From Rhizobium sp. NRK18 (GTDB lineage Bacteria; Pseudomonadota; Alphaproteobacteria; Rhizobiales; Rhizobiaceae), in assembly GCF_024385575.1 (NCBI RefSeq), contig NZ_JANFMV010000001.1, positions 3,997,681 to 4,061,680 of the forward strand: 64,000 bases of DNA. The letters run 5' to 3'. The notes beneath the pieces were generated by a model. It did no database searches, was not told the DNA's origin, and was given only the letters and a program-made list of their open reading frames with translations. Shown piece after piece: positions 22,217 to 40,192 of this stretch; position 1 is the stretch's first letter, and the number at the start of each line of letters is the position of its first letter. Made by a program: the position numbers and the translations under genes.

Positions 22217-22229
22217 CATCTATCGGCCG

Positions 22230-22947: not shown

Positions 22948-23609
22948 TGACTTTCGATACCACCCTGATCCTCGACAGCCTGCCGGCGATCTTCAAGGGA
23001 GCGCTGGTCACCCTGTCGCTGTGGATCGGCGGCACGATCGGCGCCGTGATCCTCGGCTTCTTCGTGGCGGTCGTCCGGCGCTATGGTCCGGCGCCCGCAG
23101 CGGCTGTCCTTGCGCTCTGCGTCGAGGTCCTCCGCGGCACGCCCTTCCTGATCCAGATCTTCCTTCTCTATTACGGCGGGCCCTATGCCGGGATATCGCT
23201 CGATCCCATTCCGGCCGGCCTCCTCTGCCTCTGCCTTTATGGCGCGGCCTATTTCAGCGAGATCTTCCGCGCCGGCTTCCTCGCTGTTCCGAGAGGCCAC
23301 ATCGAGGCCGCGGAGTGCCTCGGCTTCACCCGCGGACAGATCATCCGGCGGATCCTGCTGCCGGAAATGACCATGCTCGTGCTGCCGCCATCGACCAACA
23401 TGTCGATTATTCTGCTCAAGGAAACGGCCGTTCTCTCGATCATCACCGTTCCGGAAATGACGCTGACGATCAGCGCTCTCGGCTCCCAGCAATATGCCTT
23501 CCTCGAAGCCATCTTCCTGCTCGCCATCATCTATTGGGGTCTCGTGGAACTGGCCGGCAGACTGGGCCGCGCCGCCGAAACCCGGCTCTCCAGATACAGG
23601 TTCTCCTAG
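22947..23609 (+). CDS. Polar amino-acid-type ABC permease
   Basis: 220 residues, same family as the preceding gene; CVEVLRGTPFLIQIFLLYYGGP and EAAECLGFTRGQIIRRILLPE are the diagnostic segments. The second half-channel of the importer. Two bases separate it from the ATPase ATG. Confidence 0.88.
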   Translation: MTFDTTLILDSLPAIFKGALVTLSLWIGGTIGAVILGFFVAVVRRYGPAPAAAVLALCVEVLRGTPFLIQIFLLYYGGPYAGISLDPIPAGLLCLCLYGAAYFSEIFRAGFLAVPRGHIEAAECLGFTRGQIIRRILLPEMTMLVLPPSTNMSIILLKETAVLSIITVPEMTLTISALGSQQYAFLEAIFLLAIIYWGLVELAGRLGRAAETRLSRYRFS

Positions 23610-23611
23610 CC

Positions 23612-24403
23612 ATGACGACACCCGCCATCGAAGTCAGAAACCTCGCGAAGAAATTCGCCGACGTCACCGTTCTCCAGGATATCGACCTGGAAGTCGCACA
23701 AGGCCAGGTGGCCTGCCTCATCGGCCCATCGGGATCCGGCAAGAGCACACTGCTCAGATGCATCGCCTTTCTTGAGGAGCATTCGCAGGGCACGATCTCG
23801 ATCGACGGGCAGGCGCTGGGCTTCTTCGAGAACGCCCAGGGCGTGCGTGAACGCCTCCCAGCATCCTCCATCCGTGAGGTGCGCTCGCGGATCGGCATGG
23901 TGTTCCAGCAGTTCAATCTGTGGCCGCACATGACTGCATTGGGCAATGTAAGCGAGGCGCTGAAGACGGTCGACGGCATGAAGAAGGCCGAGGCCGAAGA
24001 GATTGCCATGATGCAGCTGAAGAAGGTCGGTCTGGAGCATCGCGCCTCGCATTACCCGTCGCAGCTCTCCGGCGGCCAGCAGCAGCGCGTGGCGATTGCC
24101 AGAGCGCTGGCGCGTCAACCGAAGATCATGCTGTTCGACGAAGCGACATCGGCGCTCGATCCGGAGCTGACCGGCGAAGTGCTGAACGTCATGCGCAGCC
24201 TTGCCGAGGAAGGCATGACCATGGTGGTGGTCACGCATGAAATCGGCTTTGCCGCCTCCGTCGCCAACCAGATCAATTTCCTCGATCACGGCAAGCTGCT
24301 CTTCAAGGGCCCGCCGTCGGAGGTCTTCCAGAAACCGCGCCACCCGCGGCTTGAACAGTTCCTCGACACCTATCTGGACCGGGGCGCCTCCGCGCTGCTT
24401 TGA
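23612..24403 (+). CDS. Polar amino-acid-type ABC ATPase
   Basis: 263 residues. Walker A GPSGSGKSTLLR, signature LSGGQQQRVAIARAL, Walker B IMLFDEATSALDPE and switch TMVVVTHEIGFA are intact. The frame is open back to 22919 but that part is the shadow of the permease; the ATG at 23612 begins the conserved domain. An insertion after the first strand pair (AQGVRERLPASSIREVRS, about 70-90) is common in GlnQ relatives of rhizobia. Confidence 0.9.
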   Translation: MTTPAIEVRNLAKKFADVTVLQDIDLEVAQGQVACLIGPSGSGKSTLLRCIAFLEEHSQGTISIDGQALGFFENAQGVRERLPASSIREVRSRIGMVFQQFNLWPHMTALGNVSEALKTVDGMKKAEAEEIAMMQLKKVGLEHRASHYPSQLSGGQQQRVAIARALARQPKIMLFDEATSALDPELTGEVLNVMRSLAEEGMTMVVVTHEIGFAASVANQINFLDHGKLLFKGPPSEVFQKPRHPRLEQFLDTYLDRGASALL

Positions 24404-24443
24404 GAGTGGGCGGTCGCGAAACGATGCGAGACGAGATGACGCC

Positions 24444-25181
24444 ATGAACGACAGGACCAAAGCATCGACCGTCGCACCGTCACTGCATCAGCGCATCCTT
24501 GGCGACATCGAGCAGAACATCCTGACCGGCGCCTGGCCTCCCGGCCACAGGGTACCATCCGAAATCGCCCTGACGGAGCAATACCAGTGCTCGCGCATGA
24601 CGGTCAGCAAGGTGCTGGCCCAGCTTGCCCGGGCCGGCCTGATCGTCCGGCGGCGCAAGACCGGCAGTTTCGTTCTGCCGCAACGGACACACAGCGCCAT
24701 TCTCGAGATTTCCGACGTCAAGGACGAGGTCAAGGCTCTCGGCCTGCCGTATCGCTACCAGATTCTGGCGCGGCGCATCCGGCCGATTTCCAAGGATGAG
24801 GAAGCCGGCTCGCAGCCGTCCAAGCGGCAGCAGATGCTGGACGTCGAGTGCCTGCATCTGGCGGATGGCCAGCCGTTCTGCCTCGAGGAACGGAGCATAC
24901 ACCTCGCCGCTGTGCCGGATGCGGCTGAGGAAGAGTTCAAGACGCTGTCGCCGGGCGCCTGGCTTCTCAACCATGTGCCATGGACGGCGGCCGAGCACCG
25001 GATCGCGGCGATAGAGGCTTCGGAGACGGCGGCGAAAAACCTTAATATGGCGGAGGGTGCGCCATGCCTCGCCATCGAACGTCGCACATGGCGGGCTGGC
25101 GAACCGGTGACCTTCGCGCGGCTCACCTATCCGGGCCACAAATGGACGCTGACCGCACATTTCATCCCCTCGCAGAACTGA
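24444..25181 (+). CDS. GntR-family regulator, HutC/UTRA subfamily
   Basis: 245 residues: winged helix-turn-helix (SLHQRILGDIEQNIL; RVPSEIALTEQYQCSRMTVS) and a UTRA effector domain ending in FARLTYPGHKWTLTAHF, the hallmark end of HutC-type histidine-utilisation repressors, whose inducer is urocanate. Here no hut genes are visible, so the effector may be another imidazole or amino-acid derivative. It is the fifth gene of the importer operon and probably represses it through the palindrome at 21296-21313. Confidence 0.82.
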   Translation: MNDRTKASTVAPSLHQRILGDIEQNILTGAWPPGHRVPSEIALTEQYQCSRMTVSKVLAQLARAGLIVRRRKTGSFVLPQRTHSAILEISDVKDEVKALGLPYRYQILARRIRPISKDEEAGSQPSKRQQMLDVECLHLADGQPFCLEERSIHLAAVPDAAEEEFKTLSPGAWLLNHVPWTAAEHRIAAIEASETAAKNLNMAEGAPCLAIERRTWRAGEPVTFARLTYPGHKWTLTAHFIPSQN

Positions 25182-25227
25182 GGGGCGGGCGCATACCCAA
25201 TTTCTTTTCCGTAATCGGGAGATCACC

Positions 25228-26337
25228 ATGCCATTGGGCAAGCATATACGCGACGAAGTCCGGGCACTGACACCGTACAATGCCGGGCTGACGATCGAGG
25301 AAGTGATGGCGGCCTATCAGCCCGCAAGCATCGCCAAGCTCGGCTCCAACGAAAACCCCTTCGGGCCGTCGCCGAAGGCCGTTCAGGCGATGAACGCTCT
25401 CGGCTCGTCGATTGCGCTCTATCCCGACCCTCTGGCCCGCAGTGTCGGCACCGCACTGGCCGAAAAGCTTGGCGTCGACCCGCAGACGATTATCTTCGGG
25501 AACGGATCCGAAGACCTGATCGGCGCCGTGTGCCGGGCTGTGCTGAACCCCGGCGATGTCGTGGCGACGCTTTATCCCTCGTTCCCGCTTCACGAGGACT
25601 ACGCGACGACGATGGGGGCGACGGTCGAGCGGATCGTCATCGGCGACGACTTCGCCATTCCGCTCGACGACCTCATCGCAGCCGCCAATCGCGCCAAGAT
25701 GCTGATCTTCTCGAACCCGATGAACCCGGTCGGCGCCTGGCTAGGCACCGAGGCGTTTCGCAGGCTGACAGCATCCTTGTCGAAGGACACCTTGCTGGTC
25801 GTCGATGAAGCCTATTTCGAATATGCGGCGCTCGAAGACGACTTCCCGTCGGCGCTCGAGGCGCTCAAGGGCTCCGAGCTCAACTGGCTTGTCCTCAGAA
25901 CCCTCTCGAAGGCCTATGGTCTGGCGGGTTTGCGGATCGGCTACGGCATTACCAGCAGCCCTGACTTCAAGTCCTATCTCGACAGGGTCCGCACGCCGTT
26001 TAACGTCAATGCGGCCGCCCAGGCTGCCGCACTCGCCGCCATCGCCGACGAAGATCATGTGCAGGCCGGGGTGCGCTACATCCGCTCCGAGCGGGAAAGG
26101 CTGGCCCGGATATTGACGGATGAAGGCCTGAAGGTCGCCCCGTCGGCCGGCAATTTTCTCTTCGTCGACACCGGCCAGCCCTCCGATGCCGTCGCCACCG
26201 CGCTTTTGAGAAGCGGCACCATCGTCAAACCCTGGCGTCAGGAAGGCTTCCGCCACTTCATCCGGGTCAGCATCGGCAAGGCGGAGGACAACGACAAGTT
26301 CGTCGCGGATTTCCTTGCCTTCATGCGAAAGACATGA
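25228..26337 (+). CDS. HisC-like class I/II aminotransferase
   Basis: 369 residues, fold type I PLP enzyme close to histidinol-phosphate aminotransferase. KLGSNENPFGPSPKA (about 36-50) is the HisC N-terminal signature, and the PLP lysine is in TLSKAYGLAGLRIGYG (about residue 227). It has a clear ribosome site (GGGAG). No histidine-biosynthesis gene is near; it sits behind an amino-acid importer and a HutC-like regulator, so a catabolic transamination of the imported amino acid (aromatic or imidazole) is more likely than biosynthesis. This is inferred from context. Confidence 0.75.
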   Translation: MPLGKHIRDEVRALTPYNAGLTIEEVMAAYQPASIAKLGSNENPFGPSPKAVQAMNALGSSIALYPDPLARSVGTALAEKLGVDPQTIIFGNGSEDLIGAVCRAVLNPGDVVATLYPSFPLHEDYATTMGATVERIVIGDDFAIPLDDLIAAANRAKMLIFSNPMNPVGAWLGTEAFRRLTASLSKDTLLVVDEAYFEYAALEDDFPSALEALKGSELNWLVLRTLSKAYGLAGLRIGYGITSSPDFKSYLDRVRTPFNVNAAAQAAALAAIADEDHVQAGVRYIRSERERLARILTDEGLKVAPSAGNFLFVDTGQPSDAVATALLRSGTIVKPWRQEGFRHFIRVSIGKAEDNDKFVADFLAFMRKT

Positions 26338-26412: not shown

Positions 26413-28218
26413 TTAACCGCGCAGTTCCTTGATATACGCCCGCCAGCCGCCAAGTTCGGTGATCTCGCGGGCGCCCGAAACCGCATGGGCTTCGCAGAGA
26501 AAGCCGGAGACCTGCGATCCGTCATCGAGCGTAAGCTTGCCGATGCCGAGCGGCGCCGGGATATTGGCCACGAACCTGCCGAAGCCAGCCGGCGGCAGTT
26601 TCCACACCTCGACCTCCAGCCCCTTGCCATCGAAGCCCGGCTCGCGGATCAGGCCCGGTTTCGGCGGCGTGGTGTTCGGCAGGACGAACAGGCGATAGTC
26701 GCCGGCCGTGCGGCAGGACTTGACCAGAGTGCCGCCCGGACCGGTCAGTTCGTGATTGAGCGGCATCCCGGTCAGATGGGCGCCGACGACCACGACGGAA
26801 ATCGTGCCGTCATCCATCGGCTTGACGCGGCTTGCCTCGGGGATCGCGGCCGTCTTGTCCTTGCCCATGCCGGCGGCGAGCGCCCGGTGCATGGCGTCGG
26901 CAAAGGGGCCCAGCGCCCCGTCGGAGAAACCGGGGCCGATCAGCGTGACGCCGGACGGCAGATGGCCGGCCGGATCGAAGCCGGCGGGAATGGCAATGCC
27001 GGCATAGCCGAAGAGATTGGCGAAGTTGGTGTAGCGGCCGAAGTGACCGTTCCTGGCGATCGGATCGGCCAGCATCTCCTCGACGCTGTAAGTCGTCGGC
27101 GACGTCGGCAGCATCAGCACGTCGACCTTGCTCCACTCGACCTTGGCCTTCTGCCGCAGGGCCTCGAGCTTGTACCTGCCCTCGAATGCCGCCACGGCGT
27201 CGTAGGCTTTGGCGCCTTCGATGATGCTCCGCACCGTCGGATCAAAATCATCGGCATTGGTCGCGATGAAATCCTTGACCGCCGCCAGCCGTTCGGCCAC
27301 CCACGGCCCGTTATAAAGAAGCTCGGCCGCCTCGCGGAACGGCGCATAGTCGAAGGGAACGATGGTGGCGCCGAGCGACTTCGCCCTTTCGATGGCGGCG
27401 TCGTAGAGCGCTTCATAGGCCTTATTGCCGTAGAATTCGCGCTCGGCGCCGTCGAGAACGCCGATCCGCAGGCCGGACGCCGGCAGGCCGACCGGGACGG
27501 CCTCGGCCGAGAACGGATCGGCGGCGTCATAGCCCTCCATGATCCGGCGCACGACAATGCCGTCGCCGACCGTCGCGGCGAAGACGGTCACGACGTCGAC
27601 ACTGCGGCAGGCAGGAATGACGCCGGTGTTCGGCACGAGACCCGGCGTCGGCTTGATGCCGACGAGATTGTTGAAAGCGGCGGGTACGCGACCCGAACCG
27701 GCCGTATCCGTCCCGAGCGAAAAGGCGACCAGCCCCGAGGCCATGGCAATGGCGGAGCCGGAACTCGAGCCACCCGAGACATAGGCCTTGTCGAACACGC
27801 AACGCGGCGCGCCATAAGGCGAGCGCGTGCCGTTGAGGCCGGTTGCGAACTGATCGAGATTGGTCTTGCCGACCACCAGCGCGCCGGCCGCCTTCAGCCG
27901 GGCGATCAGGGTCGCATCGGCTTCGGGGCTGTATTCGTAGGCCGGGCAAGCCGCCGTTGTCGGCAGCCCGGCGACGTCGATATTGTCCTTCACCGCGAAG
28001 GGAATACCCCACAGCGGCAGCGAGTTCGCCTCCGGCGCGCGCGCCATCAGCTCCTTGGCGGCAGAACGAAGCATGTCGTCCGGCGCACGGGTGATGAAGA
28101 TCGCCGGGTCGTCGGAGGCATTGCAGCGGGCGATCACCTCTTCGACGAGATCGAGCGGCGTCATTCCCTTGGCGTAGGCGTCGCGAATGGATGAAAGGTC
28201 GAGAATTTCGGGCAGCAT
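26413..28218 (-). CDS. atzF: Allophanate hydrolase (AtzF-like)
   Basis: 601 residues: amidase-signature domain (about 1-440) and the C-terminal AtzF/DUR1 domain (about 470-600; GTLVKSCRTAGDYRLFVLP). The Ser-cisSer-Lys triad is readable: K77 in FAVKDN, the cis-Ser in GGSSSGSA (149-156) and nucleophile S175 in DTAGSGRVPA. It splits allophanate into CO2 and ammonia. Last gene of the guanidine operon, ATG overlapping the carboxylase stop (TGATG). Allophanate would come from the deiminated product of the carboxylase. Confidence 0.9.
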   Translation of the reverse strand: MLPEILDLSSIRDAYAKGMTPLDLVEEVIARCNASDDPAIFITRAPDDMLRSAAKELMARAPEANSLPLWGIPFAVKDNIDVAGLPTTAACPAYEYSPEADATLIARLKAAGALVVGKTNLDQFATGLNGTRSPYGAPRCVFDKAYVSGGSSSGSAIAMASGLVAFSLGTDTAGSGRVPAAFNNLVGIKPTPGLVPNTGVIPACRSVDVVTVFAATVGDGIVVRRIMEGYDAADPFSAEAVPVGLPASGLRIGVLDGAEREFYGNKAYEALYDAAIERAKSLGATIVPFDYAPFREAAELLYNGPWVAERLAAVKDFIATNADDFDPTVRSIIEGAKAYDAVAAFEGRYKLEALRQKAKVEWSKVDVLMLPTSPTTYSVEEMLADPIARNGHFGRYTNFANLFGYAGIAIPAGFDPAGHLPSGVTLIGPGFSDGALGPFADAMHRALAAGMGKDKTAAIPEASRVKPMDDGTISVVVVGAHLTGMPLNHELTGPGGTLVKSCRTAGDYRLFVLPNTTPPKPGLIREPGFDGKGLEVEVWKLPPAGFGRFVANIPAPLGIGKLTLDDGSQVSGFLCEAHAVSGAREITELGGWRAYIKELRG

Positions 28219-31200
28219 CAGATGTCCTCAAGCACGGCCAGCACATCGCCGGCTCTTACGTTTCGCCCGGCTCCGGCGCGCAGTTCCTTCACGCGGCCGG
28301 CAGCATGGGCAGTGATGGTGATTTCCATTTTCATGGATTCGATTATGGCGAGCGTATCCCCCGCCGCAACGGTCTGGCCCTCCTCGACGAGAACCTTCCA
28401 GACATTGCCGGGCACCGCGCTCTCGACGCCGAAGCATCCCTCCGGAATATCCCCGCCGGCATGGTGGCCGGGGCCTTCGTCGACGGTGAAACTGTCGAGC
28501 CCCTGCTCCTTCCAGCGCCGCCGCTCGGCCTCGAAGGCCGCCTGCTGGCTTGCCTTGAAGGTGGCGATGGACGCGGCATTCGCCGCAATGCCGGCCTCGT
28601 AGTCCGCATAGGAGAATTCGCCGTCTTCCACACGGATCGGGTAACCGCCATGCGGGAAGGCGGCGCGCGCCTCCGTCAGTTCGGCATGGCTTACCGGGAA
28701 GAAGCGGACCTGATCGAAGAAATCGAGAAGCCATGGCTTGCCGTGACCGAAGACCGGCGTCTGGCGCCAGGTGTTCCACATCTGGATGGTGCGGCCGAAC
28801 AGCTGGTAGCCGCCGGGGCCCTCCATGCCGTAGATGCACATATAGGCGCCGCCGATGCCAACCGCGTTTTCCGGCGTCCATGTGCGAGCCGGATTATACT
28901 TGGTCGTCACCAGCCGATGGCGCGGATCGAGCGGAGTCGCCACCGGCGCGCCGAGATAGACGTCGCCGAGCCCCATCACCAGATAGCTGGCATCGAAGAT
29001 GGTCTGCTTGACCGCCTCCTCGTCCGAAAGCCCGTTTATCCGGCGAATGAACTCGATGTTGGACGGGCACCATGGTGCATTCGGCCGAACCAGTTCCTGA
29101 TACTTGCGCATCGCCAGTTCGGCATCCGGATCGTTCCAGGAAAGCGGCAGCCAGACCGTGCGGCTCGGAACCTTGACCGCGTTGATCGACGGCAGCGAGG
29201 CTTCGATTTCGCCGAGCAGACCGACAAGGCGCGATCGCGTCAACGCCGTGCCGTGATAATGGACCTGCAGCGAGCGGATGCCCGGCGTCAGGTCGACGAG
29301 TCCCGGCACTTTCTCGTCCTGCAGGGCCTGCATCAGCAGATGGGCGCGCAATCTGAGGCCGATCGAAAGCTGCATCGGTCCGTATTCGACCAGCAGGTTG
29401 TCATCACCCTGCCGGCGGTAGACGACCGGCACCTCGCCTTCGTCACTGCCGCCAATGATCGGCGAGCCTGCCGTCTCGCCGAGCCCGATGACCGTTGGGC
29501 CGGCCAGCGCGTCGTCAGGGCGGTGCACCGCATGAAAGCGGATCCTGTCGCCCGGCTTGAACTGGCCCATTTTCCACTGCTCGTCTCGGGCAATGACCGC
29601 CGGGCAGACGAATCCGCCGAGGCTCGGCCCGTCGGGGCCGAGGATGATCGGCATGTCGCCGGTGAAGTCGATCGCGCCGATGGCATAGGGATTGTCGTGC
29701 AGGTTGGAGGGATGAAGGCCCGCCTCGCCGCCATCTTCGCGCGCCCATTTCGGTGCCGGCCCCATCAGCCGGACGCCCGTGCGCGCCGAGTTGAAATGCA
29801 CTTCGTATTCGGTCGAAAACAGTGTCTCGATGTCTTCCTCGAGGAAGAAATCCGGCGCCCCGTGCGGACCGTAGAGGACGCCCACCTGCCATTCCCGCGT
29901 CAGCGGCGCCGGCTTGCCGGCAGGCGTGACGTCGGTTTGCGAAGCGCGTGCGAGCCTGAGCACATGGCCGGCCTTCAGCGTGCCGGTGGCATTGCCGCCG
30001 AACTGACCCAGACCGAAGGTTGCGCGCGAACCTAGGACGACCGGAGCGGCGAAGCCACCGGCGACGGCCAGATAGGCGCGCTGGCCGGGGCCGTCGATCG
30101 TTCCGATAATGAGCGTCTGGCCGGCCTTAACCGACAACGCCGTATCATGCGGCACCGGCTCGCCATCGAGCTTCATCGGCATGCGCGCGCCGGCAAGGGC
30201 TATCGTGACGTCGGAGAAGAATTTCAGCACGGGACCGGAAACCGTCAGCTCCAGCGCTGCCGTCTCGTCATGATTGCCGACGAGACGGTTGGCGTGGCGG
30301 AAGGAATAGTCGTCCATCGGGCCGGACGGCGGCACGCCGACATGCCAGAGGCCGAGACGACCGGGCAGTTCCTGAAGGCTCGACTGCGCGCCGGGAGCGA
30401 TCACCTCGATCACGTCCGGCACGAAGCCGAAATCCTTCAGCGCCGTCGTGGCGACATCACCTTTTCGGAAGAGGTCAGAGGTCGCAATCGCCTTCAGATA
30501 GTCGAGGTTGGTCTCGATGCCGCAAAGGGACGTGCCGTCGAGCGCCTTTTCCAGTGCAGCGATCGCCGATGCACGGTCGTCTCCCGAAACGATCAGCTTG
30601 GCGAGCATCGGGTCGTAATAGGGCGTGACCTCCGTCCCGGTCTCGATCCAGCCATCGACGCGCACATCGGCCGGAAAGACGACCTCCGTCAGGAGCCCGG
30701 CGCTCGGCCGGAAATCCGCATGCGGCATTTCCGCATAGACGCGCGCCTCGATGGCCGCACCTCGCGGCGTCAGGGTCTCGTTTCCAGCCAGCACGTCTTC
30801 ATCGGCCGCCTGGCGGATCATCCACTCGACGAGATCGATGCCAAAGACGGTTTCCGTCACCGGATGCTCGACCTGCAGGCGTGTATTGACTTCGAGAAAG
30901 TAGAACTCCTCGCGGGCCGGATCGTAGATGAACTCCACCGTCCCGGCGGAGGCGTAGGCAACCTTTTCGCCGAGCGAGATTGCCGCCGCGTGCAGACGGC
31001 TGCGGACCGCGTCGGACAATCCCGGCGCCGGCGTCTCCTCGACCACCTTCTGGTTTCGCCGCTGCAGCGAGCAGTCGCGCTCGCCGAGCGCGATCACCCT
31101 GCCTTTGCCGTCGCCGAAGATCTGCACCTCGACATGGCGGGCCTTTGAAACGAAGCGCTCCAGATAGACGCGGGCGTCGCCGAAACTCGAACGCGCCGTG

Positions 31201-31754
31201 CGCTGGACGCTCTCGAAAGCCGCCTTGAGGCTCGCCGCATCGGCGCAGAGCTGCATGCCGATGCCGCCGCCGCCGGCAGTCGACTTCAGCATGACCGGAT
31301 AGCCGATCGCCTCGGCGGCTTCCAGGGCCGCATCGGCGCTGTCGAGCAGATCCGATCCGGGCAACAGCGGCACGCCGCTTGCCTTGGCAAGTTCGCGCGC
31401 CGTGTGCTTCAGCCCGAAAGCCGAGATGTTTTCAGGCTTCGGGCCGATGAAGGCGATACCCTCCGCCTTCAGCCGCTCGGCAAAGCCGATATTCTCCGAC
31501 AGGAAGCCGTAGCCGGGATGCACGGCCTCCGCCCCCGTCGCCTTGCAGGCGGCGACGACGGCATCGACGTCAAGATAGCTTTCAGCCGCCGGCGCGGGTC
31601 CCAGGCGAACGGCTTCGTTGGCCATCAGCACGGCCTTCGAGAAGCGATCGGCGTCCGAATAGACGGCGACCGAGGCAATCCCGAGCCTCTTCAGCGTACG
31701 GATGATCCTGACCGCGATCTCGCCGCGGTTGGCAATGAGCACCTTTTTGAACAT
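28218..31754 (-). CDS. Guanidine carboxylase, biotin-dependent (urea-carboxylase-like)
   Basis: 1178 residues: biotin carboxylase half (about 1-450; VHPGYGFLSENIGFAE; the ATP-grasp glycine loop TAGGGGIGMQ), KipA/KipI-like carboxyltransferase region (about 470-1050; WHVGVPPSGPMDDYS), and C-terminal biotinyl domain with the acceptor K1142 in ESMKMEI. By family it would be called urea carboxylase. The guanidine-I riboswitch, the two DUF1989 proteins and the absence of urease-type genes indicate guanidine carboxylase, which makes carboxyguanidine from guanidine, bicarbonate and ATP (described for Pseudomonas syringae and others). The urea and guanidine enzymes reportedly differ by an Asn/Asp in the carboxyltransferase domain; I cannot place that residue without an alignment. 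Confidence 0.85.
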   Translation of the reverse strand: MFKKVLIANRGEIAVRIIRTLKRLGIASVAVYSDADRFSKAVLMANEAVRLGPAPAAESYLDVDAVVAACKATGAEAVHPGYGFLSENIGFAERLKAEGIAFIGPKPENISAFGLKHTARELAKASGVPLLPGSDLLDSADAALEAAEAIGYPVMLKSTAGGGGIGMQLCADAASLKAAFESVQRTARSSFGDARVYLERFVSKARHVEVQIFGDGKGRVIALGERDCSLQRRNQKVVEETPAPGLSDAVRSRLHAAAISLGEKVAYASAGTVEFIYDPAREEFYFLEVNTRLQVEHPVTETVFGIDLVEWMIRQAADEDVLAGNETLTPRGAAIEARVYAEMPHADFRPSAGLLTEVVFPADVRVDGWIETGTEVTPYYDPMLAKLIVSGDDRASAIAALEKALDGTSLCGIETNLDYLKAIATSDLFRKGDVATTALKDFGFVPDVIEVIAPGAQSSLQELPGRLGLWHVGVPPSGPMDDYSFRHANRLVGNHDETAALELTVSGPVLKFFSDVTIALAGARMPMKLDGEPVPHDTALSVKAGQTLIIGTIDGPGQRAYLAVAGGFAAPVVLGSRATFGLGQFGGNATGTLKAGHVLRLARASQTDVTPAGKPAPLTREWQVGVLYGPHGAPDFFLEEDIETLFSTEYEVHFNSARTGVRLMGPAPKWAREDGGEAGLHPSNLHDNPYAIGAIDFTGDMPIILGPDGPSLGGFVCPAVIARDEQWKMGQFKPGDRIRFHAVHRPDDALAGPTVIGLGETAGSPIIGGSDEGEVPVVYRRQGDDNLLVEYGPMQLSIGLRLRAHLLMQALQDEKVPGLVDLTPGIRSLQVHYHGTALTRSRLVGLLGEIEASLPSINAVKVPSRTVWLPLSWNDPDAELAMRKYQELVRPNAPWCPSNIEFIRRINGLSDEEAVKQTIFDASYLVMGLGDVYLGAPVATPLDPRHRLVTTKYNPARTWTPENAVGIGGAYMCIYGMEGPGGYQLFGRTIQMWNTWRQTPVFGHGKPWLLDFFDQVRFFPVSHAELTEARAAFPHGGYPIRVEDGEFSYADYEAGIAANAASIATFKASQQAAFEAERRRWKEQGLDSFTVDEGPGHHAGGDIPEGCFGVESAVPGNVWKVLVEEGQTVAAGDTLAIIESMKMEITITAHAAGRVKELRAGAGRNVRAGDVLAVLEDI

Positions 31755-31757
31755 GGC

Positions 31758-32408
31758 TCAGGCCTCATCGTCCCAGACGAGGACGCGGATCGGTGTCGGA
31801 TCGAAGCCGTTGCAGGGATTGTTGATCTGCGGGCAGTTGGAGATGACGAGAAGCACGTCCATCTCCGCCTTCAACTCCACATAATCGCCGGGCGCGGAAA
31901 TGCCGTCGACGATGGTCATCTTCCCGTCCGGCTCGATCGGCACGTTCATGAAGAAGTTGATGTTGGGGGCGACGTCGCGCTTGCTCATCCCGTGCTTCGA
32001 CACTTCGATGACAAAGTTGTCGCGGCAGGCATGCAGGTACTTCGTGCCATGCCCGAAACGCACGGTATTGCTCTCGCAGGAGCAGGCGCCTGCGGACGTG
32101 TCGTGGCGGCCGCAGCTGTCGGCGGTCATGATCGCCATCAACCGGCCTTCGCTCGACATGATCTTCGTGCCGGTCGTGATGTAGGCCGCGCCCTGCTCGC
32201 GCATGGTCTCCTGGTTGGAATAGCGCTCGGAGAAATCGGTCGCGTTATAAAACAGCGTATCGACGGCCTGCTGGCCGTAGCTGTCCTCGATGCGCAGGAC
32301 CTGTCCCTTTTTCACGAAGGTCGAAAACGGTGCTTCGGCCGGAATGTAATGGTCCTGAACAGCATTCTCGGGCGTGCGGGCGGGTGATGTTGCAACAAAA
32401 TCGGTCAT
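31758..32408 (-). CDS. DUF1989 protein, smaller subunit of carboxyguanidine deiminase (UAAP/CgdAB type)
   Basis: 216 residues of the DUF1989 (urea carboxylase-associated) family. A metal-site-like stretch is seen in DSCGRHDTSAGACSC, with later SNCPQINNPCNG. Its start is the ATG at 32408; an open frame upstream covers the neighbour gene. Lies three bases before the carboxylase gene and 11 bases after its larger paralogue. In guanidine-degrading bacteria the pair forms carboxyguanidine deiminase (CgdA and CgdB), releasing ammonia to give allophanate. I am unsure which letter fits which subunit, so no symbol is given. Confidence 0.82.
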   Translation of the reverse strand: MTDFVATSPARTPENAVQDHYIPAEAPFSTFVKKGQVLRIEDSYGQQAVDTLFYNATDFSERYSNQETMREQGAAYITTGTKIMSSEGRLMAIMTADSCGRHDTSAGACSCESNTVRFGHGTKYLHACRDNFVIEVSKHGMSKRDVAPNINFFMNVPIEPDGKMTIVDGISAPGDYVELKAEMDVLLVISNCPQINNPCNGFDPTPIRVLVWDDEA

Positions 32409-32419
32409 GATGTCCTCCC

Positions 32420-33247
32420 TCAGGCTTCCGAAAAGGCGTTGTTCTCGAAGCCGCGAACGGCTTCGGCGGTTGCCGTTCGGCAGAGGTCGTCCGCCGCCGG
32501 CTCGCTTGCGGCAATGCGGGTCACGCTCACCGGATTCGGGGCATAGGCCGGGTTCGGATCGAGGGGATGCGGGCAATTGGAGAAGACAATGGTCATGTCC
32601 ATCTCCGCACGAAGCTCGACATAGTCGGCCCCGTTCAGAAGCTCCGGCTTCCAGACGAACCGGCCGTCGCTGTCCACCCGAACCGGCGCAAAAAGCGCAA
32701 GCGCCGCGGGAATATCGCGCTTGTCGAGGCCGAGCTTCGTCGTGGCGATGATGAAGTTGTCGCGCGTGTTGCGCATCGCCTGGCTGTTGGCGGTCGCATA
32801 TTTCTTCGCATTGGAGCTGGCGGTGGAGCCGCCCATCAGGCAGTCATGAGCGCCGGACGTGTCCTCTACGATCGAGAACATCACCTTGCCCATGTCGGAG
32901 AAGATCACCCTGCCCTTGCCAAGCCCGGTGGTCCACTGCAGCTTCACCGTATCGGGCAGGTTCAGCCTTTCGGACGGGTCGGCGGCATTCCAGGCAACGA
33001 GCGAAAGCGTCGAGAAGCCGTCTTCGAGGCTGACGCGCAGCACCTCGTTCTTCTTCACCTTCGTCGACCAGTACCAGCCGCCGGGAATGACCTCGCGGTG
33101 GACGATCCTGTCGGCGGCGATGGTCGGCGCCGGCAACGGGCTTTTGCCCGGCAGTGCCTTCGGGGCGAATTCCAGCCCCTTCTTCTGATGCTCTTCATAG
33201 CGCGCGCGGTTGGCGGCGATTTCTTCCGGAGAACGTCTGATGTGCAC
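32420..33247 (-). CDS. DUF1989 protein, larger subunit of carboxyguanidine deiminase (UAAP/CgdAB type)
   Basis: 275 residues, paralogue of the next gene with a longer N terminus (RRSPEEIAANRARYEEHQKK, about 4-23). Shared features: DTSGAHDCLMGGS aligning with the HDTSAG site of the partner, RDNFIIATTKLGLDKRDIP and FSNCPHPLDPNP. The partner has extra cysteines at the metal site, so catalysis may reside mainly there or at the interface. Begins the enzyme half of the guanidine operon, after twin GC-rich hairpins. Confidence 0.82.
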   Translation of the reverse strand: MHIRRSPEEIAANRARYEEHQKKGLEFAPKALPGKSPLPAPTIAADRIVHREVIPGGWYWSTKVKKNEVLRVSLEDGFSTLSLVAWNAADPSERLNLPDTVKLQWTTGLGKGRVIFSDMGKVMFSIVEDTSGAHDCLMGGSTASSNAKKYATANSQAMRNTRDNFIIATTKLGLDKRDIPAALALFAPVRVDSDGRFVWKPELLNGADYVELRAEMDMTIVFSNCPHPLDPNPAYAPNPVSVTRIAASEPAADDLCRTATAEAVRGFENNAFSEA

Positions 33248-33273
33248 GGTTCTTCTCCTTCGTCGTTACGTTG

Positions 33274-33321
33274 GCCGGGCCGTCCCGGCTAGTGGCCTTC
33301 CGTGACCGGGCCGTCCCGGTC
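33274..33321 (-). promoter_or_regulatory. Twin GC-rich hairpins at the transporter/enzyme junction
   Basis: Two near-identical hairpins with the same CCGT loop: GCCGGG / CCCGGC (33274-33289), ending on the ATPase stop codon, and GACCGGG / CCCGGTC (33304-33321) inside the last codons of the ATPase gene. They separate importer genes from enzyme genes in the guanidine operon and may tune mRNA decay between the two halves. Confidence 0.5.
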
Positions 33322-34074
33322 AGGCCGAATGAGAGATGCCTGGCCGGCCTTGCGCGGCGGCCAGATCGCGATGTCGCGGGTAATCGTCGCGCCGTAGCGG
33401 AGCTTTTCCTCCGGCCGGTCGCGCAGACGCTCGAAGGCGACGACCCGGGTCGCAAGCGTGAAGGCTTCGCGCATGTCGTGCGTGACCATCACCACCGTCA
33501 TCGGGTTCTCGTGCCAGAGCCGCTTCATCAGCTGATGGATCTCGGCGCGGATACCGGGATCGAGCGCCCCGAAGGGTTCGTCAAGCAACAGCACCTTCGG
33601 CTTCATGATGAGGGCCTGGGCGAGCGCCAGACGCTGCTGCATGCCGCCCGACAGCTGTGCCGGATACTTGTCCTCGGCATGGCCGAGGCCGACTTCGGCG
33701 ACCATGGCCCGCGCCTCGTCGATCGCCGCCCGGCGCGCCGCGCCAAACAGCCTCGCGGTCGCGCCGGCCGCCGTCATCTCCTTGCCGATCAGCACGTTGC
33801 CGAGGACGGTGAGGTGCGGAAAGACCGAATAGCGCTGGAACACGACGCCACGGTCCGGTCCCGGTTCGGGCGGCAAGGGCTCGCCGTCCATCAGGATGGT
33901 GCCGCGCGTCTGGCGCTCCTGGCCGAGCAGCATGCGGAGAAAAGTGGTTTTGCCACAGCCCGACGGGCCGACGAGCGCAACGAAGGCGCGGGATTCGATC
34001 TCGATGGAAACGTCTTCCAGAACGATCTGGTCGCCATATTCCTTCCAGACCTTGTCGATGACCAGCCGGCTCAT
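33289..34074 (-). CDS. NitT/TauT-family ABC ATPase of the guanidine operon
   Basis: 261 residues. Walker A GPSGCGKTTFLRML, signature LSGGMQQRLALAQAL, Walker B VLLLDEPFGALDPG and switch VVMVTHDMREA are intact. SsuB/TauB/NrtD class. ATG overlaps the permease stop (ATGA). C terminus ends in a short charged tail (RPDRDGPVTEGH) encoded partly by a hairpin. Energises the importer that presumably takes up guanidine or a guanidine-yielding compound. Confidence 0.88.
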   Translation of the reverse strand: MSRLVIDKVWKEYGDQIVLEDVSIEIESRAFVALVGPSGCGKTTFLRMLLGQERQTRGTILMDGEPLPPEPGPDRGVVFQRYSVFPHLTVLGNVLIGKEMTAAGATARLFGAARRAAIDEARAMVAEVGLGHAEDKYPAQLSGGMQQRLALAQALIMKPKVLLLDEPFGALDPGIRAEIHQLMKRLWHENPMTVVMVTHDMREAFTLATRVVAFERLRDRPEEKLRYGATITRDIAIWPPRKAGQASLIRPDRDGPVTEGH

Positions 34075-34889
34075 GCGTTCTTCTCCAGGTCGGACCAGGG
34101 GAAGATGGCGATGCGCAGCCGATCGAGGACCAGGTCCGTGCCAACGGCGAGCAGCGTGATCCAGACGACATAGGGAAAGATGACATCCATCGCCAGATAG
34201 CGGCGGACGAGGAAGATGCGGTAGCCGAGGCCGGCATCCGACGAGATGGCTTCGGCAGCGATCAGAAACAGCCAGGCAGGGCCGAGCTGCAGGCGCACGC
34301 AGGTAAACAGCCGCGGCAGGATCTGCGGCAGCACGACGCGAAGCGCAATCTGCCAGGACGAGCCGCCGAGCGTTTCGGCCTTGATGATCTGCTCGCGCGG
34401 CAGCTCCAGGGCTTTCAGAGCCAGGTCGCGGATCATGATCGGCGTCACGCCGATGACGATCAGGGTGATCTTGGAGGCTTCGCCGAGGCCCATGATGATG
34501 AAAAGGATCGGCAGCAGCGCCAGCGGCGGCACCATGGAGATCGTGGCGACGAAAGGAGCGAGAAAGGCTCTGACATAGGGCAACATGCCGATCAGCATGC
34601 CGACTGCCAGCGCGATGGCCGTCGCGATGCCGATGCCCGAGAAAAGCCTGGTCAGGCTCGCCGCCGTGTCGGTCCAGAGCAGATAGTCGCCGGTGCGCGC
34701 ATCCGCCATCAGCGCCATGCGATTGATGGCGTCGGCAAATCCCGCAAAGCTCGGCAAAAGCTTGTCATTGGCGTTTTCCGCCAGCCGCGCCGCCGAGCCT
34801 ATCATGTAGGCGGTCAGCAATGCGGCGAAGGGCAGAAGCGCAAGCGCGAGCTTCAGTCCGTTCGACGGGCGCGTATTGATCCAGCGCAT
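34071..34889 (-). CDS. NitT/TauT-family ABC permease of the guanidine operon
   Basis: 272 residues with six or so membrane segments, beginning LALALLPFAALLTAYMIGSA. The ATPase-contact loop is KAETLGGSSWQIALRVVLPQILPR. SsuC/TauC family; such importers act with one homodimeric permease, and only one permease gene is present here. Preceded by the binding-protein gene (73-base gap). Confidence 0.88.
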   Translation of the reverse strand: MRWINTRPSNGLKLALALLPFAALLTAYMIGSAARLAENANDKLLPSFAGFADAINRMALMADARTGDYLLWTDTAASLTRLFSGIGIATAIALAVGMLIGMLPYVRAFLAPFVATISMVPPLALLPILFIIMGLGEASKITLIVIGVTPIMIRDLALKALELPREQIIKAETLGGSSWQIALRVVLPQILPRLFTCVRLQLGPAWLFLIAAEAISSDAGLGYRIFLVRRYLAMDVIFPYVVWITLLAVGTDLVLDRLRIAIFPWSDLEKNA

Positions 34890-34962
34890 GGTCCTCTCCG
34901 GTGATCGAGTGGCAACGAGGACCGACCGGCAATCCGCCCGGCCCCCGTCATCGCTTTCCGAC

Positions 34963-36036
34963 TTAGAGCGCGCCCTTGGCAGCAGCGTCCATATAGGTGG
35001 TCGCGAAGCGCAGCTTCACATTGCCCTTGTCACCGAGCACGGAGCCGTCCGGCATCTCGATGCCGATGACGTCTGCCGACGCAGCTCCGTTGCCGAGCAA
35101 GCCCTTCTCGAACAGGAAGTTGCGCACGTGGTCCATGGTCTTCGGCAGTTCGGCAGACGTGGTGAAGCTGACGGCGTCTTCCGGCTTGTCGAAGAGCTTG
35201 GTGGCGGCGAGCTGGGCGTCGAAACCGGCGAGATCGGTGCCCGATGCCTTGCCCATTTCCTCGCGCGCGGCCTTGGCCTCGTCGCTGTCGCCCGCCATCG
35301 CCTTCATCGTGTCATACCAGATACCGGCGAGCGCCTTGCCGAAATCGGGGTTGTCCTTCAGCACGTCCGTGTTGGCGACCATCAGGTCGATGATTTCGCC
35401 GGGGATCTGCGAGCTGTCGAAGACCTTGTGAGCGTCGGGTTCTTCCAGGATGGTCGAGACCAGCGGGTTCCAGGTGACAACGGCCGTGACGTCCGGCGTC
35501 TTGTAGGCGGCGACCATGTCGGCGTCCGACGTGTTGACGATGGTGACGTCCTTCTCGCTCATGCCGATGCTTTCGAGACCGCGCGCCAGCAGATACTCCG
35601 ATACGGAGAATTCGACGAGGTTGACCTTCTGGGCCTTGATGTCCTCGAACTTGTCCTTGTCCTTCAGGATGACGGCGTCATTGCCGTTCGAGAAGTCGCC
35701 GACGATGACCGCGGTCGTGTCGACGCCGCCGGCCGCCGGGATCGACAGGCCATCCATATTGGTGAGCGTGACGGCGTCGAACTGACCGGCCGTATACTGG
35801 TTCATGGATTCAACGTAATCGTTGAACTGCGTGACATCGATGGTGATGCCGTATTTGTCCGCCCACTTCTTGACGATGCCGTGGTCGGCCGCATAGCCCC
35901 AGGGCATCCAGCCGACATAGATCGACCAGGCGACCTTGAACTCCTTCTTGGCTTCCGCATGCGCAGGCGCAAAGGCAGCCACGGCAAGCGAAGCCGAAAG
36001 AGCGGTGATGGAAAGGATTTTCTTGAAAGTCTGCAT
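34963..36036 (-). CDS. NitT/TauT-family substrate-binding protein of the guanidine operon
   Basis: 357 residues. Signal peptide MQTFKKILSITALSASLAVA ending near PAHAEAKK. The core KVAWSIYVGWMPWGYAADHGIVKKW is a SsuA/NMT1-like fold. Start is the ATG at 36036 with a GGGG(A) ribosome site; the frame is open further upstream across the riboswitch but that part is non-coding. First gene after the guanidine-I riboswitch, so it is the gene most directly controlled by it. Ligand presumably guanidine or a guanidine derivative; the binding site has not been tested. Confidence 0.88.
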   Translation of the reverse strand: MQTFKKILSITALSASLAVAAFAPAHAEAKKEFKVAWSIYVGWMPWGYAADHGIVKKWADKYGITIDVTQFNDYVESMNQYTAGQFDAVTLTNMDGLSIPAAGGVDTTAVIVGDFSNGNDAVILKDKDKFEDIKAQKVNLVEFSVSEYLLARGLESIGMSEKDVTIVNTSDADMVAAYKTPDVTAVVTWNPLVSTILEEPDAHKVFDSSQIPGEIIDLMVANTDVLKDNPDFGKALAGIWYDTMKAMAGDSDEAKAAREEMGKASGTDLAGFDAQLAATKLFDKPEDAVSFTTSAELPKTMDHVRNFLFEKGLLGNGAASADVIGIEMPDGSVLGDKGNVKLRFATTYMDAAAKGAL

Positions 36037-36061
36037 TGGTATTCCCCTTTTGTCATTTTCC

Positions 36062-36099
36062 AAAAAGGGATCGGCACAGACCAACGCCGCCAATCCCTT
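36062..36099 (-). terminator. Intrinsic terminator, expression platform of the guanidine riboswitch
   Basis: Arms AAGGGATTGGC (36099-36089) and GCCGATCCCTT (36075-36065) form an 11-bp stem with a single G-U pair, followed by TTTTT. It lies in the leader of the binding-protein gene, 26 bases before the ATG. The first two bases of its 5' arm (36099, 36098) are also the last two bases of the proposed aptamer P1 strand GCCAA, so the folded aptamer and the terminator compete. That is the expected logic of an ON switch. Confidence 0.8.
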
Positions 36100-36217
36100 G
36101 GCTAACGAGGTCTCCCGGGCTTTTGTCCCGCCGTGCACCCGACAGGATGTCTCCCTGCCGGTGGCTGCTCTCGGACCAGTCACGCTTCACATGAAGCGCC
36201 GGAACCCTAGCGGCCAA
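36098..36217 (-). promoter_or_regulatory. Guanidine-I (ykkC) riboswitch
   Basis: Reading the minus strand, the conserved blocks of the guanidine-I aptamer appear in order and spacing: GCTAGGGTTCCG (36211-36200), ACTGGTCCGAGAG (36180-36168) and ACGGCGGGACAAAAGCCCGG then GAGA (36134-36111). A closing P1 helix TTGGC (36217-36213) / GCCAA (36102-36098) can be drawn. A variable hairpin GGCGCTTCATGTGAAGCG joins the first two blocks. The aptamer ends at the terminator upstream of the importer and guanidine carboxylase genes. This class senses free guanidinium and turns genes on (established for the class). Confidence 0.95.
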
Positions 36218-36232
36218 CTCTATTGCTACCGA

Positions 36233-36248
36233 AGCAAGTTCGGTGCCA
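36233..36248 (-). promoter_or_regulatory. Sigma-54 promoter of the guanidine operon
   Basis: TGGCACCGAACTTGCT matches the sigma-54 consensus TGGCACG-N4-TTGCW at every position but one, with the required 10 bases between the -24 GG and -12 GC. Transcription would begin near 36222, about 5 bases before the riboswitch aptamer, an excellent fit. It implies NtrC-type nitrogen-starvation control above the riboswitch. No clear NtrC site (TGCACC-N5-GGTGCA) is visible upstream; a TGGGCGCCCA palindrome lies at 36292-36301. The rest of the 324-base gap up to the hydrolase gene shows nothing else. Confidence 0.8.
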
Positions 36249-36360
36249 ACTCGAAAAATCCATTAAAATCAGAATGATTTCGACTTTGCCTTGGGCGCCC
36301 ACTCCCGTCTGACGTCCGCTTTTTAGGCTCGACGCTCAAGATATGGGCATAAGTGACGCT

Positions 36361-37119
36361 CTATCCGGCCAGGAAATCCCGAACGATGGCGTTGAAGATC
36401 TCAGGCTTTTCCATGTGCACGATGTGCGCGCAACCGGGGACGACGGCCAATCGGCAATTCGGGATCGTGCGCCACAGCCTTTCCGGCTGGCTCCAGCCGT
36501 AGGATCGATCGCCGTCGCCCCAAATCACCAGCGTCGGCATGGGGAAAGCCGCGAGATTGTCCGAGCCGTCCCATGTCTCCCAGGCGGAAAGGCTGGCAAG
36601 GGCGGCCTGCATCGTGGCTTTCGCCCCTTCGGCAAGGCAGATGGGGTAGCGTTCGGCCCGTTCGCCGATTTCAAACCAAGTGGCTGCTATGCGGGCGGCG
36701 GTCGCCTGCAGCCCTTCGGTCTTCAGACGTTGGCGCGACACGTCGATCGCTTCGAAGCGGTCCGGCAGCATGCCGACCGGCCCGGTGCCGTAGAGAACCA
36801 GCCGCTCTATGCGTTCCGGCGCCATCGCCGCCATCTGCTGAACCACCATGCCGCCCATGGAATGGCCGAGGAGATGGAACGTGTCGACGCCTGCCTCGGT
36901 CAGCGTGTCGAGCACATGCCGGGCATGGCCTTCGATCGTATCCGGCGCGAGCATGCCGGCGCTGTCTCCGAACCCCGCGAGATTGGGCGCGAGACAACGA
37001 AAGCCGTCCGAGAAGGCCTGCAGCTGCTCCTCCCACAGGCCCGCGCCACCAAGATAGCCATGCACGAAAACGAGCGGCGGCCCGCTCTCTCCCGTTCGTT
37101 TCAGGGCGAGCATGGTCAT
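36361..37119 (-). CDS. Alpha/beta-hydrolase
   Basis: 252 residues. Oxyanion motif HGYLGGAG (about 20-27), nucleophile elbow GHSMGG (Ser near residue 92), catalytic Asp in IWGDGDRSYG and His in PGCAHIVHMEKP. 3-Oxoadipate-enol-lactonase/esterase branch. Last gene of the sulfonate-type operon, 5 bases after the HpsN-like gene. It may open an ester, lactone or amide form of the substrate or product. Specific reaction unknown. Confidence 0.75.
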   Translation of the reverse strand: MTMLALKRTGESGPPLVFVHGYLGGAGLWEEQLQAFSDGFRCLAPNLAGFGDSAGMLAPDTIEGHARHVLDTLTEAGVDTFHLLGHSMGGMVVQQMAAMAPERIERLVLYGTGPVGMLPDRFEAIDVSRQRLKTEGLQATAARIAATWFEIGERAERYPICLAEGAKATMQAALASLSAWETWDGSDNLAAFPMPTLVIWGDGDRSYGWSQPERLWRTIPNCRLAVVPGCAHIVHMEKPEIFNAIVRDFLAG

Positions 37120-37124
37120 GCGCT

Positions 37125-38429
37125 CTACTCGGCCGCCGACAGGTCAAAATTTTCGCCGGGGAAGTATTTGCGCAGCCGGATATCGGCCGTGCGGGCATGG
37201 CCCTCCATCCCCTCAAGCCGCGAGATGCGGGCCGTCGCAAGCGCCACGGGCCTGGAGCCGGCTTGCGTCGCGCGTTGCCAGGTCACGACCTTCATGAACT
37301 TGTGGACCGACAGTCCGCCCGTATATCGCGCGGCGCCGGAGGTCGGCAGGACGTGGTTGGGGCCCGCCGACTTGTCGCCATAGGCGACCGTCGTTTCCTC
37401 GCCGAGGAACAGCGATCCGTAGCACTTGAGCCGCGCCAGCCACCAGTCGAGATCCGCTGCCTGAACGCTCAGATGTTCCGGCGCATAATCATCGGCCGTC
37501 GCCGCCACTTCCTCGCGGTCTGAACAGACGATCACTTCTGCATAATCACGCCAGGCTGCAATCGCGCTGGCCCGGTTCGGCTCCGGCAGGGTGTCGATGA
37601 AATCCGGGACGATCCTGATGACCGTCTCTGCCAGCTCCATGCTGTCGGTGACCAGCCAGACGGGCGAATTGTAGCCGTGCTCCGCCTGCCCGACGAGATC
37701 GGCGGCAACGATCTCGGCGTCTGCGGTGGCATCGGCCACGATCAGGCTGTCGGTCGGCCCGGCCAGCATGTCGATGCCGACGCGACCGAAGAGAAGGCGC
37801 TTGGCTTCGGCGACGAATTGATTGCCGGGGCCGACGAGAATGTCGGACTTCGGCTGCCCGAACAGGCCGAAAGCCATCGCGGCCACGCCCTGCACCCCGC
37901 CCATGGCAAGGATCGAGTCGGCGCCGCAAAGGTCGGCGGTGTAGAGAATGGCCGGGTGAACCCCGTCGGCGCGCGGAGGCGAGCAGACGGTGATGTGGCC
38001 GCAGCCGGCGACCTTTGCCGTCGTCACGGTCATGATCGCCGAGGCGACATGGCTGTAGCGTCCGCCGGGTACGTAACAGCCGGCCGCCTGGCAGGGGATC
38101 ACCCGCTGCCCAGCGACGAGACCCGGCACGATCTCGATTTCCGTCTCCGTCAACGTCGCCTTCTGCGCCTCGGCAAACTTGCGGATATTGTCGTGCGCGA
38201 AGCGAATATCATCCTTCACCTTCTGCGGCAGGCTGGCCGCCGCGGCCTCGATCTGGGCGCGGCCAACCAGAATGTCTCCATCATAGCGATCGAATTTCGC
38301 CGCATAGGCCTTCGCGGCGGCATCGCCACCCTTCTCGATTTCCTCCAGGATGGTCCGCACCGTTTCGGTGACGGAGGCAGAATCGCTCTCGGCGGTTTTG
38401 TCCGCCTTTTTCAGATAGGTACGCGACAT
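37125..38429 (-). CDS. hpsN: HisD-family dehydrogenase, probably HpsN-like sulfopropanediol 3-dehydrogenase
   Basis: 434 residues, histidinol-dehydrogenase family (AGCYVPGGRYSHVASAIMT; GPGNQFVAEAKRLLFGRVGID; YAPEHLSVQ; GPNHVLPTSGAARYTGGLSV). There are no other his genes here, and the N terminus (SRTYLKKADKT) and Tau-type importer context match HpsN, the NAD enzyme that oxidises 2,3-dihydroxypropane-1-sulfonate to sulfolactate in Ruegeria and Cupriavidus. HisD itself oxidises histidinol twice. Placed 58 bases after the permease. The assignment rests on overall resemblance from memory and context; substrate-site residues were not aligned. Confidence 0.65.
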   Translation of the reverse strand: MSRTYLKKADKTAESDSASVTETVRTILEEIEKGGDAAAKAYAAKFDRYDGDILVGRAQIEAAAASLPQKVKDDIRFAHDNIRKFAEAQKATLTETEIEIVPGLVAGQRVIPCQAAGCYVPGGRYSHVASAIMTVTTAKVAGCGHITVCSPPRADGVHPAILYTADLCGADSILAMGGVQGVAAMAFGLFGQPKSDILVGPGNQFVAEAKRLLFGRVGIDMLAGPTDSLIVADATADAEIVAADLVGQAEHGYNSPVWLVTDSMELAETVIRIVPDFIDTLPEPNRASAIAAWRDYAEVIVCSDREEVAATADDYAPEHLSVQAADLDWWLARLKCYGSLFLGEETTVAYGDKSAGPNHVLPTSGAARYTGGLSVHKFMKVVTWQRATQAGSRPVALATARISRLEGMEGHARTADIRLRKYFPGENFDLSAAE

Positions 38430-38487
38430 TGGGCATTTCCTCGATACTGGGCCGGGACGATAGGGGTTGTGAGTATCGGTAAGCCGA

Positions 38488-40172: not shown

Positions 40173-40192
40173 GGGATCATGCTCCTGTTGCT

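Follow-up and report, generated by a model that had tools for sequence, protein, structure and literature searches.

The genes and pathway of bacterial guanidine use, the riboswitch classes that sense guanidine, operons carrying two such switches and the control of such genes by NtrC are already known. In Raoultella, Erwinia and Klebsiella, as in the locus described here, a guanidine-I riboswitch stands before the importer genes and a guanidine-II riboswitch further down an operon for the same enzymes (PMC12186494); according to the published model, guanidine-II is a translational ON switch in which the ligand joins two hairpins and takes up an anti-Shine-Dalgarno sequence (PMC9094411). In Burkholderia cenocepacia, a 'urea carboxylase' and its related transporter protein are NtrC-dependent (PMC5491218). 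Here we analysed a 64,000-nt stretch of the genome of Rhizobium sp. NRK18 (contig NZ_JANFMV010000001.1, positions 3,997,681 to 4,061,680; hereafter the window, with coordinates counted from its first letter), whose minus strand carries a complete guanidine-carboxylase pathway operon at 36250-26413. Our comparison suggests that this operon is probably governed by three successive gates, namely a sigma-54 promoter, a guanidine-I aptamer and a guanidine-II aptamer that partly consists of protein-coding sequence. A preliminary description had proposed double control by the first two; both elements held up, but the account was incomplete, as the guanidine-II aptamer at 33322-33275 (-), inside the operon, had been overlooked.

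Elements of the guanidine operon

Searches with Rfam and protein family models, together with the sequence itself, placed all elements listed in the preliminary description on the minus strand in the order given there, and the family models, which also defined the gene order, confirmed the importer, the two DUF1989 proteins, the carboxylase and the allophanate hydrolase. In the direction of transcription, the features are as follows (ABC, ATP-binding cassette).

36233-36248 (-): sigma-54 promoter TGGCACcgaacTTGCT, 10 of 11 consensus bases, predicted +1 at about 36222
36110-36221 (-): guanidine-I (ykkC) aptamer, Rfam RF00442, 87.8 bits against a gathering score of 63
36078-36113 (-): predicted antiterminator, 36113-36098 pairing with 36093-36078 according to ViennaRNA pair probabilities
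36062-36099 (-): intrinsic terminator, stem 36099-36089 with 36075-36065, then a U-run
34963-36036 (-): ABC importer substrate-binding protein, TIGR03427, 549.9 bits against a cut-off of 333.9
34071-34889 (-): ABC importer permease, PF00528
33289-34074 (-): ABC importer ATPase, whose last codons encode guanidine-II hairpin P1
33275-33322 (-): guanidine-II (mini-ykkC) aptamer, Rfam RF01068, 45.1 bits against a gathering score of 32
32420-33247 (-): UAAP1, putative CgdA-type carboxyguanidine deiminase subunit (DUF1989), TIGR03425, 279.1 against 206.0 bits
31758-32408 (-): UAAP2, putative CgdB-type subunit (DUF1989), TIGR03424, 328.7 against 284.7 bits
28218-31754 (-): predicted guanidine carboxylase (urea carboxylase family), TIGR02712, Asp at both diagnostic positions
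26413-28218 (-): allophanate hydrolase, TIGR02713, 770 bits

Three sets of loci were compared with the window: the best 80 of 332 loci ranked by cgdA likeness, mostly from Rhizobiaceae (the named loci); a sample of 249 genomes of the window's order, from which 15 guanidine-I matches below the gathering score were not fetched, while L115, also below it, was; and a scan of the phylum, from which three guanidine-I matches outside the order were not fetched (G586, G431 and the second of G542).

Conservation of the sigma-54 promoter

Sigma-54 promoters follow the consensus TGGCACG-N4-TTGC, and each candidate was scored by its matches to it (maximum 11), with GG and GC required. The GG and GC of TGGCACcgaacTTGCT lie 12 bp apart in a TGGCAC-N5-TTGC context, as expected of this promoter class. 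The C of the -12 GC is at 36234, 13 nt ahead of the first aptamer base, which sets the predicted +1 at 36222; the motif position thus agrees with the earlier prediction of a start just before the aptamer. In the 150 nt upstream of guanidine-I, 49 of 58 order loci and 35 of 38 loci of other classes had a motif scoring at least 9. That score was reached in 0/101 of the regions immediately downstream, in 0/101 on the opposite strand and in 1.4% of mononucleotide-shuffled versions of the order loci. The promoter claim is thus beyond chance; the union of sigma-54 and riboswitch, earlier read from this sequence, is real but not peculiar to it, for the sampled genomes of Pseudomonadota show it repeatedly.

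The position of the motif was conserved as well. The -12 C fell 6-17 nt ahead of the aptamer in 48 of the 49 motif-bearing order loci, and 35-85 nt ahead in all but one of 36 loci of other classes (score at least 8). Among the named loci, guanidine-I was recognized by pattern in 78 of 80, and 76 of these 78 (all but L249 and L271) carried the promoter, with the -12 C at -16 to -12. Order loci that start with the importer protein had a motif of at least 8 in 43 of 44 cases, compared with 3 of 6 for those that start with UAAP1. The motif was thus missing from three of the six UAAP1-first guanidine-I operons (L082, L089 and L091, as against L069 and L087). Two genomes (G193 and G034) each carry both operon kinds, with the motif at the importer-first kind only. 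Some genomes may thus divide the two tasks, with uptake nitrogen-dependent and degradation nitrogen-independent; G095, with the motif at both kinds, and the loci L086 and L101 run against such a split. Three importer-first loci from other orders of the window's class (L175, L179 and L180) showed no motif of at least 8 within 150 nt.

Candidate NtrC sites and nitrogen control

NtrC sites share the frame TGC-N11-GCA, and two candidates lie upstream of the promoter.

36416-36432 (-): candidate NtrC-type enhancer, exact TGC-N11-GCA, a site type enriched in the named relatives
36333-36349 (-): second, imperfect NtrC-like site (TGCC...AGCG), weak with one mismatch, in the relatives' cluster range

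The frame occurred upstream in 47 of 78 named loci, compared with 6.5±2.0 in shuffled sequence and 6-12 for the control spacings N9, N10, N12 and N13, and the start of 44 of the 64 NtrC-like sites fell 101-140 nt ahead of the aptamer. Of the order loci, 22 of 56 had the frame (4.8±2.0 shuffled), and in other classes the form GCAC-N7-GTGC was present in 9 of 45 (0.6 shuffled). NifA-type sites (TGT-N10-ACA) were also considered and rejected, as they showed no upstream enrichment. Both rpoN and ntrC are present in the genome. The DUF1989 proteins belong to a group that we take to be COG3665. A sigma-54 survey predicted 102 COG3665 genes of the alpha, beta and gamma classes to be sigma-54 dependent (PMC12316311). 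Furthermore, the B. cenocepacia genes I35_7283-7286, likened to the window's operon by annotation only, were less expressed when nitrogen was limiting and ntrC was mutated, the 'urea carboxylase' by a log2 value of -6.0 (PMC5491218); the literature thus already covers part of the sigma-54 control of such operons.

Guanidine-I aptamer and terminator

The covariance-model search bore out the proposed guanidine-I aptamer, and the match at 36221-36110 is the only one in the genome at E ≤ 0.001. The intrinsic terminator claimed to follow it is likewise present. In the minimum-energy fold of 36221-36030 (ViennaRNA), the 3' tail of the aptamer forms an antiterminator that blocks the terminator, and in nascent folds the antiterminator was favoured for ends at 36080-36070. 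A looser scan of 3.2 kb returned 3 terminator-like sites, this one among them, as against 2.0 in shuffled sequence. Strict terminators followed guanidine-I in 64 of 78 named loci, 4 of 55 in the order set (window included) and 1 of 45 in the phylum set, and in 0/78 and 0/55 of control stretches 400 nt farther on. On these counts the terminator platform is mainly a feature of close relatives, and a terminator mechanism common to guanidine-I across the phylum was not supported.

Guanidine-II aptamer at the junction of importer and enzyme genes

The second element has two hairpins with ACGR loops and a score above gathering, and is filed here as a guanidine-II aptamer and candidate regulator. It lies between the importer and the enzyme genes: P1 (33322-33303) is formed by the last ATPase codons, the ATPase stop TAG (33291-33289) falls in the linker, and P2 (33288-33275) occupies part of the 41-nt gap before cgdA. 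An Rfam scan of all 80 named loci found guanidine-I in 78 and guanidine-II at the ATPase/cgdA junction in 74, the others being L212, L213, L240 (contig end), L250, L252 and L279, the last of which is embedded by pattern yet under the Rfam threshold. At L212, L213 and L250 the hairpins have decayed at the usual place and represent natural losses. The ATPase frame takes in both hairpins in 31 of the 80 loci (30, including the pattern-only L279, plus L284); the stop falls between the hairpins, as in the window, in 35 and before P1 in 9, while a decayed element was seen in 3 and no ATPase match in 2.

Within the order sample, guanidine-I was detected in 60 and guanidine-II in 58 of the 249 genomes, and both occurred in one operon on one strand in 12; six of these operons have a fully embedded guanidine-II, two (including the window) a half-embedded one and four neither. 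In a thirteenth, G203, the loop pattern alone points to guanidine-II downstream of the ATPase stop. Across the order, guanidine-II is mostly located in front of other genes. In the phylum scan, guanidine-II matches were compared for genomes having guanidine-I, which added 35 guanidine-I genomes outside the order sample (mostly of other classes, two from the window's family); 24 of them had a guanidine-II on the same strand, 1.9-4.9 kb farther downstream. Ten guanidine-II loci of the phylum scan were inspected: seven, all of other classes, precede the carboxylase gene rather than cgdA, with the UAAP2 stop ahead of the aptamer in the six that could be read clearly, in agreement with the enterobacterial layout (PMC12186494); one, G603 of the window's class, precedes UAAP1, with an ATPase match running 28 nt into the aptamer; and two showed none of the operon's genes. 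In two Rhizobium mongolense genomes, ROSE thermosensor elements lie just upstream of the guanidine operon on the opposite strand (L262:1209-1297(-) and L263:1190-1277(-)).

The motif counts around guanidine-II and the tree of stop positions used 86 rows, made up of 12 order-sample loci and the 74 named loci in which the loop pattern was hit twice; L284 stood outside this set, as its P2 loop fails the pattern, but was included in the hairpin alignment. Within the 300 nt before guanidine-II, a sigma-54 motif of at least 9 was found in 0/86 rows and one of at least 8 in 2/86, and no sigma-70-like site with fewer than four mismatches was found; nor was any sigma-70-like site found at 33200-36400 of the window. 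With no internal promoter in these rows or in the window, that candidate was rejected, and guanidine-II is most likely carried by the operon mRNA. A terminator after guanidine-II was rejected as well, since a T4 run within 60 nt occurred in only 1/86.

Probable constraint on RNA rather than peptide

The repeated RDGP/RDDP tail of the ATPase could be a functional protein motif, with the RNA likeness as a by-product. The near-constancy of the peptide in close relatives would fit this explanation, which we nevertheless reject as very improbable. In 29 importer operons that do not belong to the two-switch set, no ATPase has the tail RD(D/G) (RDDP-type); among them, L103 is truncated at a contig end and L067 is the locus of G203. 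The tail is also absent from the nine named loci whose stop precedes P1, which keep the RNA without the peptide. At G179 a G-C pair has become A-U, with pairing kept and Arg replaced by Gln. Pairing holds for 98.2% of stem cells in the fully embedded loci (37, of which 28 are distinct), a level reached by none of 500 shuffles (mean 97.3), and slid controls gave 57.4% at most; both-sided changes occur at two pairs, which 8 of the 500 shuffles also reach. The Arg codons in the hairpins are CGG in 107 of 107 cases, as against 18% of 1567 in the rest of the ATPase. These codon and pairing counts come from related genomes and so are not independent. A tree of the 86 rows needs only three changes of stop position (by a quick method, with some long branches). 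Taking together the stem pairing, the CGG codons, the absence of the tail elsewhere and the RNA kept without peptide, we read the hairpins as shaped by selection on RNA rather than on peptide.

Proposed regulation and alternatives

We consider it probable that the operon assimilates guanidine nitrogen under three successive gates. At the first, nitrogen limitation would lead phosphorylated NtrC and sigma-54 to start transcription near 36222, yielding an RNA predicted to begin with the guanidine-I aptamer; here promoter conservation is the observed part. At the second, guanidine bound to guanidine-I would free the aptamer's 3' tail to form the antiterminator, so that polymerase passes 36099-36062, whereas transcription would stop at the terminator when guanidine is lacking, as folding and the known class suggest. 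The AND gate of sigma-54 and guanidine-I in the preliminary description is well supported by the comparison as anatomy, and its behaviour is inferred. At the third, guanidine-II at the ATPase/cgdA junction may control cgdA translation and perhaps, by coupling, that of later genes. Each ribosome completing the ATPase would have to unwind P1, since P1 is ATPase coding sequence, as the whole aptamer is in 31 of 80 named relatives; this geometry is observed, and the regulation through it is inferred. Importer synthesis would then require low nitrogen and guanidine, and the ATP-consuming enzymes would be made only after another, cooperative check for guanidine. The action of guanidine-II probably depends in part on coupling to ATPase translation. 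More tentatively, and with somewhat less than even confidence, an aptamer built from codons of the upstream gene might be a ribosome-clocked checkpoint, in which guanidine can refold or signal only between ribosomes finishing the ATPase, so that enzyme translation reads both guanidine and importer synthesis below the sigma-54 and guanidine-I AND gate.

Several further results weigh against this scheme. The window's exact NtrC-like site is farther upstream than the relatives' usual cluster; in the order set the control spacings N9 (12) and N13 (11) are likewise raised, and in other classes TGC-N11-GCA (15/45) does not stand out from control spacings (9-14/45). Among loci from other orders of the window's class, only one of five had a sigma-54 motif of at least 9. 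Nascent folds ending at 36065 and 36060 favour the terminator and longer RNA again the antiterminator, and folding alone shows no guanidine effect. In the window's guanidine-II linker no qualifying anti-Shine-Dalgarno pairing, and hence no expression platform of that kind, was found; the Shine-Dalgarno sequence pairs instead with UUCUCC in the cgdA start. With identical linker/Shine-Dalgarno pairs counted once (69 of 86), pairings of at least 5 were moderately frequent in half-embedded (14/25 vs 11% shuffled) and embedded loci (18/31 vs 24%), and reached 2/13 vs 10% where the stop precedes P1. RNAalifold detected no conserved Shine-Dalgarno sequestration in any of these three classes.

This missing conservation of Shine-Dalgarno switching is also what speaks for an operon with two gates only, in which guanidine-II would be a relic, or a pair of stem-loops that stabilises the mRNA or spaces the genes, with cgdA translation coupled to that of the ATPase. 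In fully embedded loci the ATPase stop lies a few bases from the next start, often overlapping it, and the natural losses at L212, L213 and L250 fit such a view. We regard it as unlikely, because the Rfam model, ligand-binding loops included, matches at the junction in 74 of 80 loci, the element persists through changes of stop-codon position, and guanidine-II also lies within the guanidine-I operon of 24 of the 35 further genomes, mostly of other classes. Much less likely still is that a different promoter drives the operon, the sigma-54 motif being a decoy: the operon start is predicted here from sequence rather than transcripts, and a few importer loci (L100, L249 and L271), together with the importer-protein-first L175, L179 and L180, do without the motif, but its position and sequence are conserved, no sigma-70-like site was found in 33200-36400, and the Burkholderia genes with the same annotation depend on NtrC (PMC5491218). 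Three gates remain the preferred reading.

Gene identities and genomic neighbourhood

UAAP1 and UAAP2 form a pair of DUF1989 subunits, the composition that defines the CgdAB family, and are accordingly annotated as a putative CgdAB; the UAAP2 reading frame is open from 32576, with a probable ATG at about 32408. Guanidine carboxylases are recognized by Asp at the positions equivalent to 1330 and 1584 of Kluyveromyces lactis urea amidolyase (PMC11410670), and the Asp/Asn rule is also given in PMC12186494. In an alignment to 5i8i, Asp696 of the window's enzyme aligns with Asn1330 of the K. lactis protein, and the D of GLGD, counted by hand, falls at 1584; with both Asp residues present, the protein is predicted to be a guanidine carboxylase. 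The importer models indicate only a 'putative urea' and a nitrate/taurine-like substrate, and guanidine is suggested by the gene setting.

Upstream on the same strand (36361-41329) lie an alpha/beta hydrolase (36361-37119), a histidinol-dehydrogenase-like protein (37125-38429) and a taurine-type ABC importer (from 38488), which look like a separate sulfonate-use cluster reading in the same direction toward the guanidine operon. Downstream, in convergent orientation (21299-26337, +), are parts of a polar amino-acid ABC transporter and a HisC-like aminotransferase.

Comparison with known systems

The literature searched, including the guanidine biology review, gave no account of the union of sigma-54 and guanidine-I; that review does not mention 'sigma', 'NtrC', 'RpoN' or 'coding' (PMC12186494). 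The accessible text of the B. cenocepacia study reads the genes as urea use, with no occurrence of 'guanidin' or 'riboswitch' (PMC5491218), and that of the sigma-54 survey calls COG3665 poorly characterised, with 'guanidin' absent and 'riboswitch' confined to the title of a reference (PMC12316311). Further searches, which took in few subscription papers and are not proof of absence, found no guanidine-II aptamer in coding sequence. Tandem riboswitches share with the window more than one sensor per transcription unit (PMC9481103). As far as its accessible text goes, however, the tandem review lists no tandem for any of the four guanidine classes (PMC9481103), while tandems of T-box and guanidine elements are described before branched-chain amino-acid genes (PMC12452182). 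The window's two aptamers, 2.8 kb apart and one of them partly coding, do not form a contiguous leader as tandems do.

Taken together, these observations link guanidine riboswitches with the general response to nitrogen starvation, in support of the view that these bacteria use guanidine as a nitrogen source, and offer an easily testable case of a ligand-sensing RNA within protein-coding sequence, in which synonymous mutations would break the RNA and leave the protein intact. In Raoultella, Erwinia and Klebsiella guanidine-II precedes the carboxylase gene (PMC12186494), whereas in the window it stands before cgdA and shares sequence with the ATPase reading frame; this place and this coding overlap are what sets the window apart from the known two-switch operons.

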